Positions 6,331 through 62,235 of a stretch of 64,000 nucleotides of DNA are shown one piece after another. The stretch spans positions 62,001 to 126,000 of the forward strand of contig NZ_QYBC01000001.1 in the NCBI RefSeq assembly GCF_004137085.1, in the 5' to 3' direction. The notes below the pieces were generated by a model. That model made no database searches and was not told the origin of the DNA. It worked only from the letters and a program-made list of their open reading frames with translations. This DNA is from Lichenibacterium ramalinae. GTDB lineage: Bacteria; Pseudomonadota; Alphaproteobacteria; Rhizobiales; Beijerinckiaceae. Numbering within the stretch: the stretch's first letter is position 1; each line of letters opens with the position of its first letter. Made by a program: the position numbers and the translations under genes.

Positions 6331-6927
6331 ATGATCCTCCGTTCCTCCCCCGCCTCACCCTTCGGCCGCAAGGTCAAGCTCGCCGCCGCCGTGCTGGGCG
6401 TCACCCTGTCGGTCGTGGAGGCCGACACGATGAGCCCGACGGATTCGCTGCGCCGCGAGAACCCGCTCGGCAAGATCCCGACGCTCGTGATGGAGGACGG
6501 CACGACGCTGTTCGATTCACGGGTGATCGTGGCCTATCTCGACGCGGTGGCGGGCGGCGGGCGGATCATCCCCGCCGAGATCGCCCCGCGCTTCGCCGCC
6601 CTGCGGCTCGAGGCCCTGGCGGACGGCATCGCGGACGCGGCCCTGCTGCAGGTCTACGAGGGGCGGTGGCGCGAGGAGCCGCGGCGGGACGCGACCTGGA
6701 CCGATCACCAGGCCGGCAAGGTGTCGCGTGGCCTGGCGGCGCTCGAGGCGGCCCCGCCGGAAGGTCCCGTCACGGTCGGCCACATCGCGCTCGCCTGCGC
6801 GCTCGGCTATCTCGACCTGCGCTTCGCCGGAGAGTGGCGCGACACCCATCCCGCGCTGGTGGCCTGGCTCGACGGTTTCGCGGCCGCTGTGCCGGCCTTC
6901 GAGACGACCCGCGTCAAGCCGACCTGA
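6331..6927 (+). CDS. glutathione S-transferase family protein
   Basis: A 198-residue GST-fold protein. The N-terminal thioredoxin-like domain carries SPASPFGRKVKLAAAVLG, then NPLGKIPTLVMEDGTTLFDS with the cis-Pro (KIPTLV) and the Asp-Ser pair that binds the glutathione gamma-glutamyl group. The C-terminal helical domain (about residues 85-198) is shorter and more divergent. The likely catalytic position is Ser in the SPASPFG region. Substrate not predictable. It shares a regulatory gap with the small membrane protein gene, and the TetR-type palindromes about 90-125 bases upstream may affect it too. Confidence 0.85.
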   Translation: MILRSSPASPFGRKVKLAAAVLGVTLSVVEADTMSPTDSLRRENPLGKIPTLVMEDGTTLFDSRVIVAYLDAVAGGGRIIPAEIAPRFAALRLEALADGIADAALLQVYEGRWREEPRRDATWTDHQAGKVSRGLAALEAAPPEGPVTVGHIALACALGYLDLRFAGEWRDTHPALVAWLDGFAAAVPAFETTRVKPT

Positions 6928-7040
6928 CGGGGCTCAGGCGCGCCGGGGCAGAGAACCGCGGCGCTCGTGGAGGCATGTCGCCGAGGTGCGTGGCGCCTAT
7001 CAGCGCGGCGCCCGAGGCCTCTCCCCTGCCCCCAACGGAA

Positions 7041-7069
7041 AGGGGCGCGGCGCCACGCGCCACGCCCCT
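7041..7069 (-). terminator. hairpin downstream of hpnH
   Basis: AGGGGCG and GGCGC pair with GCGCC and CGCCCCT across a three-base loop, with one internal mismatch. It lies 24 bases past the hpnH stop. The T tract that follows on the minus strand is short (CTTTCC), so termination strength is uncertain. Confidence 0.45.
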
Positions 7070-7092
7070 CGACCGGACGGAGATGGCGCTGC

Positions 7093-8277
7093 CTATTCGG
7101 CGGCTTCCATCGGCTTGACGCGGTCGTTGGCGACCTTGCTGAACGACTTGCCGGTCGTCTTCTCGAAGGTGTCGATCTCCTCCATCTTCGCCTGGACGTG
7201 GCGCGAGAAGACGAAATCGGCGGGACGCTGGTTGGCCAGCGAGATGTCGGGCGCGGTCGGGCCCTGGGTCCTGATGCCCTTCACCGCCAGTGTCAGCATC
7301 TTCCAGGGCGCCTTGACGGCATCCTTCACGGCCGTGGCCTCGAAGCCGCAGTGGACCATGCAGTCGGCGCATTTCTCGTAGTTGCCGGTGCCGTACTTGT
7401 CCCACTCGGTCGTGTCCATCAGCTCCGTGAAGCTCTGGGCATAGCCTTCGCCGAGCAGGTAGCAGGGCTTCTGCCAGCCGAACACCGTGAAGGTCGGGTT
7501 GCCCCAGGGCGTGCAGCTATAGGTCTGGTTGCCGGCGAGGAAGTCCAGGAACAGCGGCGACTGGAACCAGGGCCAGGCCTTGCCGCCCTTGCCGCGGGCG
7601 AAGATGCCCCGGAACAGCTCCTTGGTCTTGGCGCGGTTGAGGAAATGCTGCTGGTCGGGCGCGCGCTCGTAGGCGTAGCCCGGCGACACCGTGATGCCGT
7701 CGATGCCCATCTCCGTCATGGTGTCGAAGAAGCGCGCGGCCTTCTCGGGATCGGCGTCGTTGAACAGCGTGGTGTTGATGTTGACGCGGAAGCCCTTGGC
7801 CTTGGCGGCCTTGATGGCGGCGACGGCCTTGTCGTAGACGCCCGTCTGGCAGACGGACTTGTCGTGCATCGTCTCGTCGCCGTCGAGATGCACCGACCAG
7901 TTGAAGAACGGGCTCGGCTTGTACTGGTCGAGCTTCTTTTCCATGAGCAGCGCATTGGTGCACAGCGTCACGAACTTCTTCTTGGCGATGGCGCCGCGGA
8001 CGATCTCGGGCATCTCCTTGTGGAGCAGCGGCTCGCCGCCCGCGATGGAGATGACCGGCGCACCGCACTCGTCGATGGCCTTCATGGCATCGGCATAGGA
8101 CACGCGCTGGTTGAGGATCTTGTCCGGATAGTCGATCTTGCCGCAGCCCGCGCAGGCGAGGTTGCAGCGGAACAGCGGCTCGAGCATCAGCACGAGCGGG
8201 TAGCGCTTGCGACCGGACAGGTGCTGCTTCAGCACGTAGGCGCCGATGCGCGCCGTCTGGTGGAAGGGAATGCCCAA
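7093..8277 (-). CDS. hpnH: adenosyl-hopene transferase, radical SAM enzyme
   Basis: HpnH joins the 5'-deoxyadenosyl group of SAM to diploptene, the first step from C30 hopene to C35 bacteriohopanepolyols in the membrane. The 394-residue protein has the radical SAM cluster motif CNLACAGC (Cys 38, 42, 45) preceded by LMLEPLFR, the SAM-binding GGEP (ISIAGGEPLL), WSVHLDGDETMHD, and a Cys-rich C-terminal region (YSCTPWGNPTFTVFGWQKPC, KCADCMVHCGFE). The start is a TTG at 8277, chosen because AAGGAG lies six bases upstream and the product MGIPFHQTARIGAYVLKQ aligns with known N-termini. A TTG two codons earlier has no spacing to the ribosome site. It follows ispH by 44 bases, giving an isoprenoid-to-hopanoid transcript. 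Confidence 0.95.
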   Translation of the reverse strand: MGIPFHQTARIGAYVLKQHLSGRKRYPLVLMLEPLFRCNLACAGCGKIDYPDKILNQRVSYADAMKAIDECGAPVISIAGGEPLLHKEMPEIVRGAIAKKKFVTLCTNALLMEKKLDQYKPSPFFNWSVHLDGDETMHDKSVCQTGVYDKAVAAIKAAKAKGFRVNINTTLFNDADPEKAARFFDTMTEMGIDGITVSPGYAYERAPDQQHFLNRAKTKELFRGIFARGKGGKAWPWFQSPLFLDFLAGNQTYSCTPWGNPTFTVFGWQKPCYLLGEGYAQSFTELMDTTEWDKYGTGNYEKCADCMVHCGFEATAVKDAVKAPWKMLTLAVKGIRTQGPTAPDISLANQRPADFVFSRHVQAKMEEIDTFEKTTGKSFSKVANDRVKPMEAAE

Positions 8278-17300: not shown

Positions 17301-17731
17301 GCGCGCTCGAGCCGCCGCCCGGCGGCTGGCACGACACGGGCGACATCGTGGCGATCGACGCCGAAGGCTTCGTGTCGATCAAGGGCCGCGCCAAGCGCTT
17401 CGCCAAGATCGCCGGCGAGATGGTGTCGCTGGCGGCGCTGGAAGCCGTGGCGGCCGACCTGTGGCCCGACAGCGGCACCGCCATGACGACCCTGCCCGAC
17501 CCCCGCAAGGGCGAGCGCATCGTCCTGGTGACGGAGAAGAAGGACGCGACGCGCCAGGCCTTCGCCGCCTATGCCCGCGACCGCGGCGTGGCCGACGTCG
17601 CCATGCCGTCCGACGTGGTGGTGGTCGAGGCCCTGCCGCTGCTCGGCTCCGGCAAGCTCGACCACCCGGCCGTGGGGCGCATGGTGCGGGAGCGCGCCGA
17701 AGCCAAGCAGCCGGAGCCCGCCGTGGGGTGA
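14324..17731 (+). CDS. MFS / acyltransferase / acyl-ACP synthetase fusion (Aas-LplT type)
   Basis: One 1135-residue protein that combines three activities usually encoded by lplT and aas. Residues 1-410 form an MFS transporter of the lysophospholipid type (FNDNVLKNALVFLILFKA, GGQWADRYDKAK). Residues about 425-640 are a PlsC-type acyltransferase with NHVSLLDAGL and FPEGRITRTGS, where the usual NHxxxxD His-Asp pair reads NHVSLLD. Residues about 650-1135 are an AMP-binding acyl-ACP or acyl-CoA synthetase (LFTSGSEGAPKGVVVSHRN, GYGITETGPV, GWHDTGDIV, GRAKRFAKIAGEMVS). Likely job: flip lysophospholipids across the inner membrane and re-acylate them. GGGGGGATAAG precedes the ATG. The open frame extends upstream through the divergent gene but is not coding there. 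Confidence 0.93.
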   Translation: MFRSLMTSRRFAPLFWCQFFSAFNDNVLKNALVFLILFKADKASAPMLVTVASALFVAPPLILSGLGGQWADRYDKAKVAQRLKLAEIAAALFSVLGFVLVSLPLLFTALVLFSTVAALFSPVKYGMLPDQLRQEELPTGNALVEGGTFIAILLGTIAGGWAAADGHAVAYGIAVSAFAVLCWGTSLLIPATGEGDHDLAVDPNVFRSTGQLVRHLHADRRLWSCGLFVSWFWLTGAVALTLLPILVKADLHGSEGAMTAALAIFSIGIAVGSGIASWLSAGRVVLLPTALASVLLGLFSLDLAWGSGHFLSAATLGALDLVARRDGLHAAIDLFGIAVSGGLFIVPVFTAVQVWSTTEDRARNIGAVNILSAGFMVAGAIATAALQASGLTTPELFALLGVANLLAAWWIFHTLPTSAFRDLLSVILRCFYRLDVTGLDHVAKAGPNPIVALNHVSLLDAGLALSLLDRDPVFAIDATIATRWWVKPFLRLTNALPIDPSKPMATRALINAVRSGETLVIFPEGRITRTGSLMKVYDGAGLIADRTGVPVVPVWIEGLERTPFSYLTEWQTRPRMLPKVTAKVLEPRRVHVPDGLFGKKRRQAAGAALYDVMSDAAFRTSRVDRTIVEATIAAGDEHGWKRVALEDPVAGPLTYKRVAIGLRVLGAKLMPLAPVGQAVGVMLPTAAGTAITVLALQSAGRVPAMINFTSGIANVMAACRAAGVDTVLTSRAFIAKAKLDKLAAAMAEGVKLVYLEDVRATVTAADKLRGLLGYREPLVRRGPDDPAAILFTSGSEGAPKGVVVSHRNLLANVAQVAARIDFGRADKIFQVLPMFHAFGLMAGLVLPLVSGVPVYLYPSPLHYRIVPELVYSINATAIFGTDTFLAGYARSSNAYDFRSLRLVVAGAEAVKEATRKVYLEKFGLRILEGYGITETGPVLAVNTPMFNRFGTVGRFLPDIEHRLAPVEGVEDGGRLSVRGPNVMLGYVRGGDLGALEPPPGGWHDTGDIVAIDAEGFVSIKGRAKRFAKIAGEMVSLAALEAVAADLWPDSGTAMTTLPDPRKGERIVLVTEKKDATRQAFAAYARDRGVADVAMPSDVVVVEALPLLGSGKLDHPAVGRMVRERAEAKQPEPAVG

Positions 17732-18000
17732 CGGGCCTGCGCCAGCATGGCCCCGGAAGCCTCGCCATCGCCTACGAGGTCCGGGCCATGACCAGGCGTA
17801 CGTCGTTGCGCGGGACCGTGCGACCGGTGGAGGGAGCGGCAGACGGCCAGCGTAGGGACGTCGGCTCAGCTCGGACGAAGCGCTGAAACATCGGCGCCAA
17901 CCCCATCCCTTTCGCAGGCGTTCATCTCCGCTACCGTAGCTGCATGCAGCCGGTCACGAACTTCTCTCCCGAGAAGGCGATCGGCACAGGGAAACGACAC

Positions 18001-18228
18001 ATGAAGATCAAGGCCCTCATCGTTGGCTGCGTCCTCGCCGCCACCCTCGGCGCGGCTGCCGTCCCCGCCCAGGCCGACGCGGTCGACCGTCGTCTCCACC
18101 ACATGCAGATGCGCCACGACATGCATCGCATGATGCGTCACGAGAGAATGCGTCATGAAATGCATCGCATGATGCGGCACGAGCGCATGCGGCACCGCAT
18201 GCATCACATGATGCGCAACGGCATGTGA
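18001..18228 (+). CDS. secreted His/Met/Arg repeat peptide
   Basis: 75 residues: a 25-residue signal peptide (IKALIVGCVLAATLGAAAV, cleavage AQA before DAVDRR) and a 50-residue mature part of which 38 residues are His (11), Met (14) or Arg (13). The mature part is nearly three copies of one 13-residue unit, MHRMMRHERMRHE, at precursor residues 41-53, 54-66 and a degenerate 67-75. The matching 39-base DNA units are 18121-18159 and 18160-18198. Mature length is far below known multicopper or RcnB-type proteins. Methionine and histidine clusters suggest binding of copper, silver or nickel in the periplasm; this is inference. The gene stands alone, with its own terminator. Confidence 0.75.
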   Translation: MKIKALIVGCVLAATLGAAAVPAQADAVDRRLHHMQMRHDMHRMMRHERMRHEMHRMMRHERMRHRMHHMMRNGM

Positions 18229-18254: not shown

Positions 18255-18286
18255 GGACCGGTGCCTCCGGGCGCCGGTCCTCTTTA
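18255..18286 (+). terminator. terminator after the His/Met/Arg peptide gene
   Basis: GGACCGGTGCC pairs with GGCGCCGGTCC (one G-U type mismatch) around a TCCG loop and is followed by TCTTTA. It lies 26 bases after the stop. Confidence 0.75.
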
Positions 18287-18570
18287 TTCCGGGTTTGTCG
18301 CACTCCAAGCCTGCGACGCTGTCGCTGCCTGGCTCACTGAGCGCATCGGGGCGACCTCCGCTCCCAGCGAAGAGCAGGCGGGTGCTCAAGGGCGGGACCG
18401 GGCCGGGAGCCTTGTGGCGGCTCGGATGAAACGAGATCGCGCGGACGCCCCCACGGGCGACACGGGCAGGACCTCGCGCGAGATCGTTAACATTCGACGA
18501 AAACCGAACATTACAAATCGCATGGCTGCCTTGCAGTGAGCGGGCGCTCATGCGAAGTGAAGCTCCAGAC

Positions 18571-18596
18571 AAAAAAAGACCGCCCTGGAGGCGGCC
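18571..18596 (-). terminator. Rho-independent terminator, minus strand
   Basis: GGCCGCC pairs with GGCGGTC across TCCAG and is followed by seven T on the minus strand. It would end the transcript of the DUF1684 and possibly Rrf2 genes. Confidence 0.8.
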
Positions 18597-18697
18597 TCGA
18601 GTCTAGGGAGGAAACGCCCAAGAAGGGCATGCGCCCGAAGGCGCGAGATCGAATCTACGCTGCACTGCGAAATCCGCAAGCCCCTTCACGGGGCTAT
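18571..18697 (-). ncRNA. candidate 3'-UTR small RNA with anti-Shine-Dalgarno stretch
   Basis: Read on the minus strand, this stretch after the DUF1684 gene forms AGCCCC/GGGGCT (18679-18695), GCGCC/GGCGC with a UUCG loop (18631-18644), GCCC/GGGC (18616-18628), then a single-stranded UUUCCUCCC (18606-18614), and ends in a terminator stem at 18578-18596 with seven U (18571-18577). The terminator stem contains a G-U pair that is only possible on the minus strand, which fixes the direction. CCUCC stretches in loops are a known feature of alphaproteobacterial sRNAs. No promoter was recognised, so processing from the DUF1684 mRNA is likeliest. Alternatively this is only a structured 3' UTR. Confidence 0.4.
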
Positions 18698-18753: not shown

Positions 18754-19401
18754 TCACCCCAGCCGCGGCGCCTTCTCGCCCGCCCGCACGGGGACGCGCA
18801 GCCGGTTCGCGGGCGGCGACAGCGGGCACACCCAGGCCGGCGAGTAGGAGCAGGACGGGTTGTAGCTGAAATTGAAGTCGAGCACCGCCCGGCCTTCAGC
18901 GTCCGGACCCAAGTCCGAACCAAGATCGGCGCCCTTGATCGTGTCGAGGAGGTAACGGCCGCCGCCGTAGGTTTCGTCGCCCGCGGTGGCGTCGGCGAAA
19001 GGCAGGAACACGCCGCCGCCGTAGCCCGCCACCCAGAACAGGGTGAGTTCGGCGCCGAACGCTTCGGCGAGCCCCCGCGTCCGCCCGAACGGTTTCAACG
19101 ACAGTGCGCCGTCCCGTCCCGCTTCGGCGGAGACGGGCTCGGCCTCCAGCGGGTCGATGGCGACGGCGAAGCGCAGGGCCGGGTCGTAATCGAAGAACGG
19201 CAGCCCCGCGAAGCCGCGACGGGCTTCGGGCTGCAGCGGAGACTGGGAATGGTGGCGGAACAGCCCGTCGCGCGCCTCCCGCCACAGCGCCCAGGCCCGG
19301 CGCGGGTCGGGTTCGGCCCGCACGGCGCCGTAGAGGTCGGACACGCGCCGCCGCCAGTCCCACAGCGCCGGGTAGCCGCCCGCCGCATCCCAATCCGCCA
19401 T
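18754..19401 (-). CDS. DUF1684 domain-containing protein
   Basis: 215 residues, cytoplasmic. The C-terminal signature of DUF1684 is clear: GGGRYLLDTIKGAD, then LDFNFSYNPSCSYSPAWVC, then PLSPPANRLRVPVRAGE. The centre carries FFDYDPALRF and FGRTRGLAEAFGAELTLFWV. The family is widespread, found in bacteria and archaea, and its function is unknown. The cysteine pair in NPSC and WVC is conserved in relatives. It starts 30 bases after the Rrf2-type regulator's stop, in the same direction, so the two may be co-transcribed. Confidence 0.9.
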   Translation of the reverse strand: MADWDAAGGYPALWDWRRRVSDLYGAVRAEPDPRRAWALWREARDGLFRHHSQSPLQPEARRGFAGLPFFDYDPALRFAVAIDPLEAEPVSAEAGRDGALSLKPFGRTRGLAEAFGAELTLFWVAGYGGGVFLPFADATAGDETYGGGRYLLDTIKGADLGSDLGPDAEGRAVLDFNFSYNPSCSYSPAWVCPLSPPANRLRVPVRAGEKAPRLG

Positions 19402-61732: not shown

Positions 61733-62235
61733 GGTCGACGCCCTTCACACTCAACGGACCGCAAGCCCCGCCGCGGTCGCGGGACGCTCAAAGCATGTCG
61801 CGTTCCCGCGACGACACTCCAGCTCGAAAAACCCAGCGCCGACGCCGACTTGAGTCGGATCGCCGCTTCAACCCCGGTTCCGCTGACGACCGGCCTGCAA
61901 CGCCGCCGGAGCCGTATCACTTCGTCCCCGCCGTCGCCACGGGCAAGAGTCGCCACAGGCAAGAGTCGCCTCGGGCAAGAGTCGCCCCGGCCAGGAGTCG
62001 CCCTGGCCAAGAGCAGCATCGGATCGCCCGGGATCGCCCCGGCGGTCCCGATCAGGCGCCACGGGCGACCGGCGGGGTACAAACGTCACCTACCCCGACC
62101 TGCAACAGAAGATAAGGCCCGGGCGCGGCGATTTGTGGATCGCACGCGCGCTCCGCCCTGTCATTGGCCGCTCCGCGGCCGACATATCCCGAGCGGGGCG
62201 GCGAGGGCCGCCGCGCCAGCGAGGGAGAGGTCGGG
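61733..62235. other. 503-base gap with a 16-base tandem repeat
   Basis: Between the receiver gene and the monooxygenase-like gene. Apart from the repeat at 61933-62012 no feature is recognised, and no frame here looks coding. GAGGGAGAGG at 62221-62230 is the ribosome site of the next gene. Confidence 0.5.
61933..62012. repeat. five tandem 16-base units
   Basis: Units GTCGCCACGGGCAAGA, GTCGCCACAGGCAAGA, GTCGCCTCGGGCAAGA, GTCGCCCCGGCCAGGA and GTCGCCCTGGCCAAGA follow each other without gaps. Sixteen is not a multiple of three, which argues against coding. Confidence 0.9.

Follow-up and report, generated by a model that had tools for sequence, protein, structure and literature searches.

What does a 75-residue reading frame made up largely of methionine, histidine, and arginine encode, and is it a gene at all? 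The question is raised by a locus within the window (the whole 64,000-nucleotide stretch of DNA that was analyzed). The frame is a real, conserved gene for a small secreted bacterial peptide that consists mostly of Met, His, and Arg, and the likeliest role of the product is to shield the cell envelope against oxidants or soft metals as an expendable sponge. The parts of the gene are collected in Table 1.

Table 1. Parts of the peptide gene and its immediate flanks, in window coordinates.
Feature	Position	Strand	Basis
CDS, 75-residue secreted peptide with Met/His/Arg repeats	18001..18228	+	intact 83%-identical orthologue; support for purifying selection
Sec signal peptide, residues 1-25, cleavage after AQA	18001..18075	+	sequence; cleavage by inspection
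Mature peptide, 50 residues, 14 M / 11 H / 13 R	18076..18225	+	residue counts
Tandem repeat, 39-base / 13-residue unit, 2.7 copies	18109..18215	+	Tandem Repeats Finder, score 144, 82% match
Shine-Dalgarno-like AGGGA, 8 bases ahead of ATG 18001	17988..17992	+	sequence
Conserved promoter/leader region common with the G003 orthologue	17862..18000	+	alignment start at 17862
Intrinsic-terminator-like hairpin, then TCTTTATT	18255..18288	+	by eye; similar hairpin in G003

The translation consists of MKIKALIVGCVLAATLGAAAVPAQA followed by the mature part, in which Met, His, and Arg account for 38 of the 50 residues (76%) and Met and His together for 25. The mature peptide lacks Cys, carries a net charge of +7 (R+K minus D+E), and is built on the repeat unit MHRMMRHERMRHE, the DNA copies of which differ synonymously (e.g., CGC, CGT, and CGG for the same Arg). 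As a chance control, ten 64-kb sequences were generated with a first-order Markov model. The richest 50-residue stretch in the open frames of at least 60 amino acids of each held 7-9 His and Met residues, or 22-26 with Arg included, compared with 25 and 38 in the peptide; the best stretch in the rest of the real window reached 15 and 28. AlphaFold2, run on the single sequence with no alignment, predicts one helix spanning residues 2-72 (best pLDDT 86.3, five models 66.8-86.3, pTM 0.44), which for a repeat peptide modeled in this way is weak evidence. Judged by its layout, the gene looks monocistronic.

One congener, G003, carries an intact orthologue. Homology runs from the upstream region through the gene and, weakly, into the terminator; on either side the two genomes carry different genes. 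Another genus genome, G001, gave no protein match to the peptide. Between the window and G003, dN is 0.088 and dS 0.549 over the whole gene, and 0.101 and 1.05 over the mature part, where 10 of 50 codons are replaced and 12 are changed synonymously. The substitutions at sense codon positions 1, 2, and 3 number 5, 7, and 20, respectively. For this one close orthologue pair, purifying selection on the peptide is thus supported. An earlier note on this DNA had suggested selection at the peptide level from the synonymous changes between repeat copies, and the values for the mature part of the pair bear it out; its coordinates, frame, signal peptide, count of His, Met, and Arg, and nearly three 39-base copies were likewise recovered. 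The same note held that a missing orthologue or a broken frame in relatives would speak against the gene; the frame in G003 is unbroken.

In the window/G003 pair, His is kept at 22 of 23 positions, Asp/Glu at 11 of 12, Arg/Lys at 24 of 27, and Met at 24 of 29, while pooling of six orthologue sets gives kept fractions of 0.89 for Met, 0.83 for His, 0.80 for Arg/Lys, 0.71 for Asp/Glu, and 0.59 for other residues. Because both residues are conserved in the pooled and pairwise comparisons, Met and His both appear to matter. Two other readings of the DNA were rejected. A longer frame from the ATG at 17944 (94 amino acids) is unsupported, since this codon is ATA in the G003 orthologue; between it and the next start, G003 has 1- and 2-base indels, and the frame nonetheless stays open there. 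The antisense strand of the gene is also stop-free and rich in His and Met, because CAT and ATG are mutual reverse complements, but in the comparison with G003 the antisense frame is conserved at 49 of 75 positions against 62 of 75 for the sense frame.

The peptide is not an isolated case. Relatives were sought with a DNA pattern (MMxH, a gap of 3-33 bases, and MMxH again) that does not enforce the reading frame, such that not every match is a peptide. The pattern occurred in all six genomes of the genus and, across the family (which includes Methylobacterium), in 53 of 397. In an order-level sample it was found in 21 of 397 genomes: 9 of the 20 sampled from the gene's own family and 12 of the 377 from other families. 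A reversed control pattern matched once per search. A pattern scan of genome contigs returned at least 117 stretches at 80 or more loci, most of the 80 being, as judged by reading, chance matches or other kinds of proteins. Among 45 loci that were fetched, 40 had a Met/His-rich ORF passing the filter, mostly with a signal peptide visible by eye (the exceptions are L099, L100, L101, L107, and L115). The 40-member set used below comprises the window peptide and 39 others, with L119 left out. At least five Met/His-rich secreted peptide genes reside in the window genome (the window gene, C11, C39, C61, and C58), and separate signal peptides joined to the same composition recur at other loci. In some Methylobacterium-type members, His outnumbers Met. 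Cys is absent after residue 27 in 38 of the 40 members. The C-terminal residue is Met in 32 of 40, against 11 expected from composition, a comparison that counts orthologues as independent and hence inflates the significance. An odd low-complexity ORF thus becomes part of a family of several envelope-peptide genes that is open to testing, with no Pfam or NCBIfam model above cut-off for the window peptide and seven relatives.

Some of the leaders also appear to be related. Compared with four signal peptides of the paralogues here called group A, that of the window peptide reaches scores of 42-56, and with that of a paralogue at 2105 kb in G004 it reaches 60; its best score against a background of 84 signal-like N-termini is 35. 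The leaders of C61 in the window genome (35) and of G005 (25) lie within the background range, and therefore not every family member has the common leader. The scores support common ancestry of some leaders, and not identity of function.

Group A consists of C11 and C58 in the window genome, C10 in G002, and two loci in G004, with synteny common to them. At all five, an Oxidored_molyb protein and a cytochrome b561 are encoded within ~3 kb of the peptide; the best NCBIfam match of the molybdoprotein tested, that of G004, is MsrP (95 bits; cut-off 207). A relative of a PAS-HWE histidine kinase is likewise present at all five loci, truncated in one G004 copy, and two ferritin-like proteins are encoded at G002 C10 and both G004 loci, with a 41-residue match being all that C11 keeps. 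In G004, an MMRHE-repeat peptide has a sulfite-oxidase-like protein ~3.3 kb away. The two G004 group A clusters (L024 and L025; MsrP-like protein, cytochrome b561, ferritin, and peptide) are very similar, lie in opposite orientation on one chromosome ~480 kb apart, and encode identical peptides. Of the 15 peptide loci of the genus found by pattern or homology, five have one of the 46 listed MsrP-family places no more than 5 kb away, against 0.22 expected; C58 (found through the MsrP search) is excluded, and orthologues are treated as independent, which inflates the significance. As four of the five represent one orthologous locus type, the independent support amounts to two locus types. True MsrP, above cut-off, is encoded in all six genus genomes.

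A second link is to NrsF, which is also present in all six genomes. In G002 and G005 the gene after nrsF encodes an MXKDX peptide (L258 and L262; 52.7 and 43.8 bits against TIGR02953, cut-off 41), and the G005 locus in addition has an MsrP-like gene, the product of which is 40% identical to the group A one. At a second G002 locus, L259, a His-rich intermediate that follows nrsF scores 25.2 bits and so fails the TIGR02953 cut-off. This intermediate makes MXKDX and MMxH peptides a continuum, as far as sequence goes, and lies between the MXKDX oxidant sinks and His/Met peptides with the look of metal binders. For the group A peptide L266 there was no match to TIGR02953. At their NrsF loci, G000 (the window genome), G001, G003, and G004 showed no Met-rich peptide.

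These neighborhoods suggest a reading, to which we tentatively assign a probability of about 0.45: the window peptide would be a sacrificial periplasmic (or surface) Met/His sink that works as MrpX and BcrX do. The product of bcrX, according to PMC8315932, is a methionine-rich MXKDX protein; the gene is transcribed together with bcrQP (MsrQP) and induced by HOCl, and the bcrX-bcrQP operon contributes to HOCl resistance. The window leader resembles those of paralogues that have an MsrP-like molybdoenzyme and a cytochrome b561 next to them, which is the logic of MrpX and BcrX, Met-rich oxidant sinks that MsrPQ recycles. Upon export and signal cleavage, the Met/His/Arg chain would reside in the envelope and intercept oxidants such as HOCl and possibly singlet oxygen. 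Met would be converted to Met-sulfoxide, and His would react too, while Arg would maintain the solubility of the peptide and tether it to the anionic envelope. Met-sulfoxide reductases of the envelope, both true MsrP and the MsrP-like/cytochrome b561 pair encoded beside the sister peptides, might then recycle it. What the sequences establish is the gene, its conservation, the multigene family, the kinship of its leader with those of sisters linked to MsrP-like genes, and the MXKDX peptides at NrsF loci of two congeners. The window gene is solitary, so that its sharing of the sisters' function is inferred, as are the location, oxidation, and recycling of the peptide and the substrate of the MsrP-like enzyme. 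Photosynthesis was considered as a reason for a singlet-oxygen sink and set aside; reaction-centre genes are present in three of the six genus genomes, and the window genome is not one of them. Should the sink be confirmed, the genus and other Methylobacterium relatives would be spending resources on several expendable Met/His sponges, some of which come with dedicated candidate enzymes for recycling.

The likeness to the MrpX/BcrX group (MXKDX proteins, TIGR02953) is partial. Shared features are the small size, the signal peptide, Met-rich repeats, the lack of Cys, and, for relatives of the window peptide in the genus, an association with MsrP-like/cytochrome b pairs or sigma-NrsF genes. However, the repeat is not MxKDx: His and Arg replace Lys and Asp, the unit is 13 residues long, and the peptide is cationic. 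The window peptide has no MXKDX motif and no TIGR02953 match at E<=1, and its gene is not next to MsrPQ/YedYZ or ECF sigma/NrsF genes, with no MsrP-like, ECF, or NrsF gene among its near neighbors. Also against the sink, Met is less well kept than His, Asp/Glu, and Arg/Lys in the window/G003 pair. The members with more His than Met, the four genomes whose NrsF loci showed no Met-rich peptide, the leaders within the background range, the metal ATPase near the G003 orthologue, and the lack of sigma-F/BcrS-type promoters (both described below) count against it as well.

The peptide might instead be a soft-metal sponge, i.e., a disordered chain whose Met thioethers and His imidazoles would hold Cu(I)/Ag(I), or else Cu(II)/Ni(II)/Zn(II), and so buffer periplasmic metal before export. 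This is a serious possibility, although we would bet against it. It stands close to the sink because of the high content and conservation of His (Met and His are half of the mature residues, and His is the best kept in the window/G003 pair), the ATPases near a few members, and the metal-responsive sigma-F/NrsF loci of Caulobacter. Caulobacter sigma-F, according to PMC3511200, is a heavy-metal-response regulator that partly controls a YedY-family gene, a point in favor of the sink, and also controls bufferin-type (DUF2282/DUF692) operons; since it responds to heavy metals, the NrsF linkage leaves room for a metal role. Relative to shuffled sequences, HxM (8 vs 3.0), MxH (6 vs 3.0), and HxxM (6 vs 3.0) are enriched, counts that the tandem repeat inflates, but MxxH (2 vs 3.0) is not. 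Like SilE and PcoE, the peptide is secreted and rich in His and Met that could bind soft metals, and SilE binds Ag+ through His/Met motifs (PMC5008109). Unlike them, however, it is a tandem repeat dominated by Met, His, and Arg, it has zero matches to either motif (MxxHx5-6HxxM and HxxMx3HxxM, from the same paper), and the neighbors examined at the window gene include no silver or copper efflux genes of the sil, pco, or cus kind. Its strongly cationic character is a further point against metal binding.

A YHS-HMBD P-type ATPase is encoded ~2 kb from the G003 orthologue, but it is not adjacent, has no counterpart beside the window gene, and has relatives at three of the 57 loci searched, that of G003 included. 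In the Methylobacterium member G284, the peptide is flanked on one side, ~230 bases away, by a ZntA-like heavy-metal ATPase that scores under the cut-off for ZntA, and on the other by a DUF4396 gene. In a Hyphomicrobiaceae MAG, ~80 bases separate the peptide L119 (= L167) from an ATPase with 59% identity to that of G003. Metal binding, as proposed in the earlier note, thus retains some backing from the G003 and Methylobacterium ATPases. The scanned group A neighbors, on the other hand, include redox enzymes and no metal exporter, and on balance the gene neighborhoods of the relatives seem to favor an oxidant sink, a possibility that the earlier note does not raise, slightly more than metal binding. 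At 25 loci outside the genus (90 proteins), no common neighbor theme emerged in the best 25 of 120 families, where AAA domains and PhoH (three members) ranked top; PhoH adjoins members of one orthologous group.

Bufferins (BufA1/BufA2, modified by MNIO enzymes) offer a further comparison. They too are small, Sec-exported envelope peptides, often encoded beside sigma/NrsF genes, and depend on conserved Cys, as set out in PMC12452194. The window mature peptide has no Cys, and no MNIO gene is among the neighbors examined. At the sigma-NrsF locus L259 of G002 (6705-8193), the His-rich MXKDX-like peptide directly precedes a bufferin cluster, in which one peptide resembles BufA2 weakly (16 bits against a cut-off of 60) and the maturase BufB is recognized above threshold (369 bits against 310); parts of an oxidant sink and of a copper buffer thus occur together in one cluster, and a peptide of this composition ahead of a maturase gene fits metal binding. 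An unlikely and bolder combination of the two functions is a redox-gated buffer, in which the Met/His chains would hold Cu(I)/Ag(I), oxidants would form sulfoxide and free the metal, and the MsrP-like/cytochrome b561 pair would restore the sites. If true, copper-buffer and methionine-sink systems would share a single mechanism, which in some Beijerinckiaceae has expanded to several divergent copies in each genome.

Release from the cell as a cationic peptide that acts on other microbes or on a host found no support and is improbable; an antimicrobial-like role had also been raised for this locus. The peptide's shortness, secretion, charge, and weakly predicted helix would suit such a function, but among the few neighbors examined there is no immunity, processing, or export gene, the copies are several per genome and variable in sequence, and group A paralogues adjoin redox and stress genes. 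Moreover, a 13-residue period would give no constant helix face. Least credible is a functionless by-product of an expanding ATG/CAT repeat that is translated by chance: the DNA repeat is indeed in tandem and the reverse complementarity noted above makes both strands Met/His-rich, but the gene-wide dN and dS, the intact orthologue, the signal peptide, ribosome site, and terminator-like hairpin, and the same composition behind separate signal peptides at other loci all argue otherwise.

Database searches gave no named family for the peptide. Pfam and NCBIfam have no model above cut-off for the window peptide, nor for seven relatives; matches to FUSC, Amj, and GerD (Pfam) and to TruD, GerD, StpX, and FKBP (NCBIfam) fell below cut-off and were discarded. 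No relative was found among PDB chains or PLSDB plasmids, tblastn against named GTDB r220 genomes confirmed no orthologue among 592 stretches (very near genomes were possibly left out), and literature searches turned up neither a named family nor a publication that describes the repeat. The earlier impression of a pattern with no named family therefore holds for Pfam, NCBIfam, PDB, and PLSDB; the peptide is nevertheless not isolated, being one of a larger set of similar secreted peptides.

The gene is preceded by an MFS/acyltransferase/AMP-ligase fusion ending at 17731 and followed by a DUF1684 gene on the opposite strand (18754-19401) and then an Rrf2 regulator. Within the conserved upstream region lies GTTCAT, found in the 150-bp upstreams of 9 of the 40 members against 19 of 656 other genes, where several of the nine are orthologues and the background includes upstreams inside operons. 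GGAAC-N-CGTT, which we take to resemble the general stress (EcfG) promoter motif, is absent upstream of the window gene. With a spacer of 16 or 17 bases it occurs 84-111 bases ahead of four Methylobacterium-type orthologues (L093, L094, L097, and L105). The sigma-F/BcrS-type promoter GTAA[CG]-N14-18-CGAA was found in none of the 400-bp upstreams of the 40 members.

Two further elements were seen in the window. A 16-base repeat at 61933-62013 (five copies, 87% match), where the gene caller placed no gene, is probably non-coding because its period is not a multiple of three. The sole Rfam match above gathering score is an mmgR/suhB small RNA (RF00519) on the minus strand at 18563-18635 (60.3 bits, gathering 41), ~335 bases downstream of the peptide gene.
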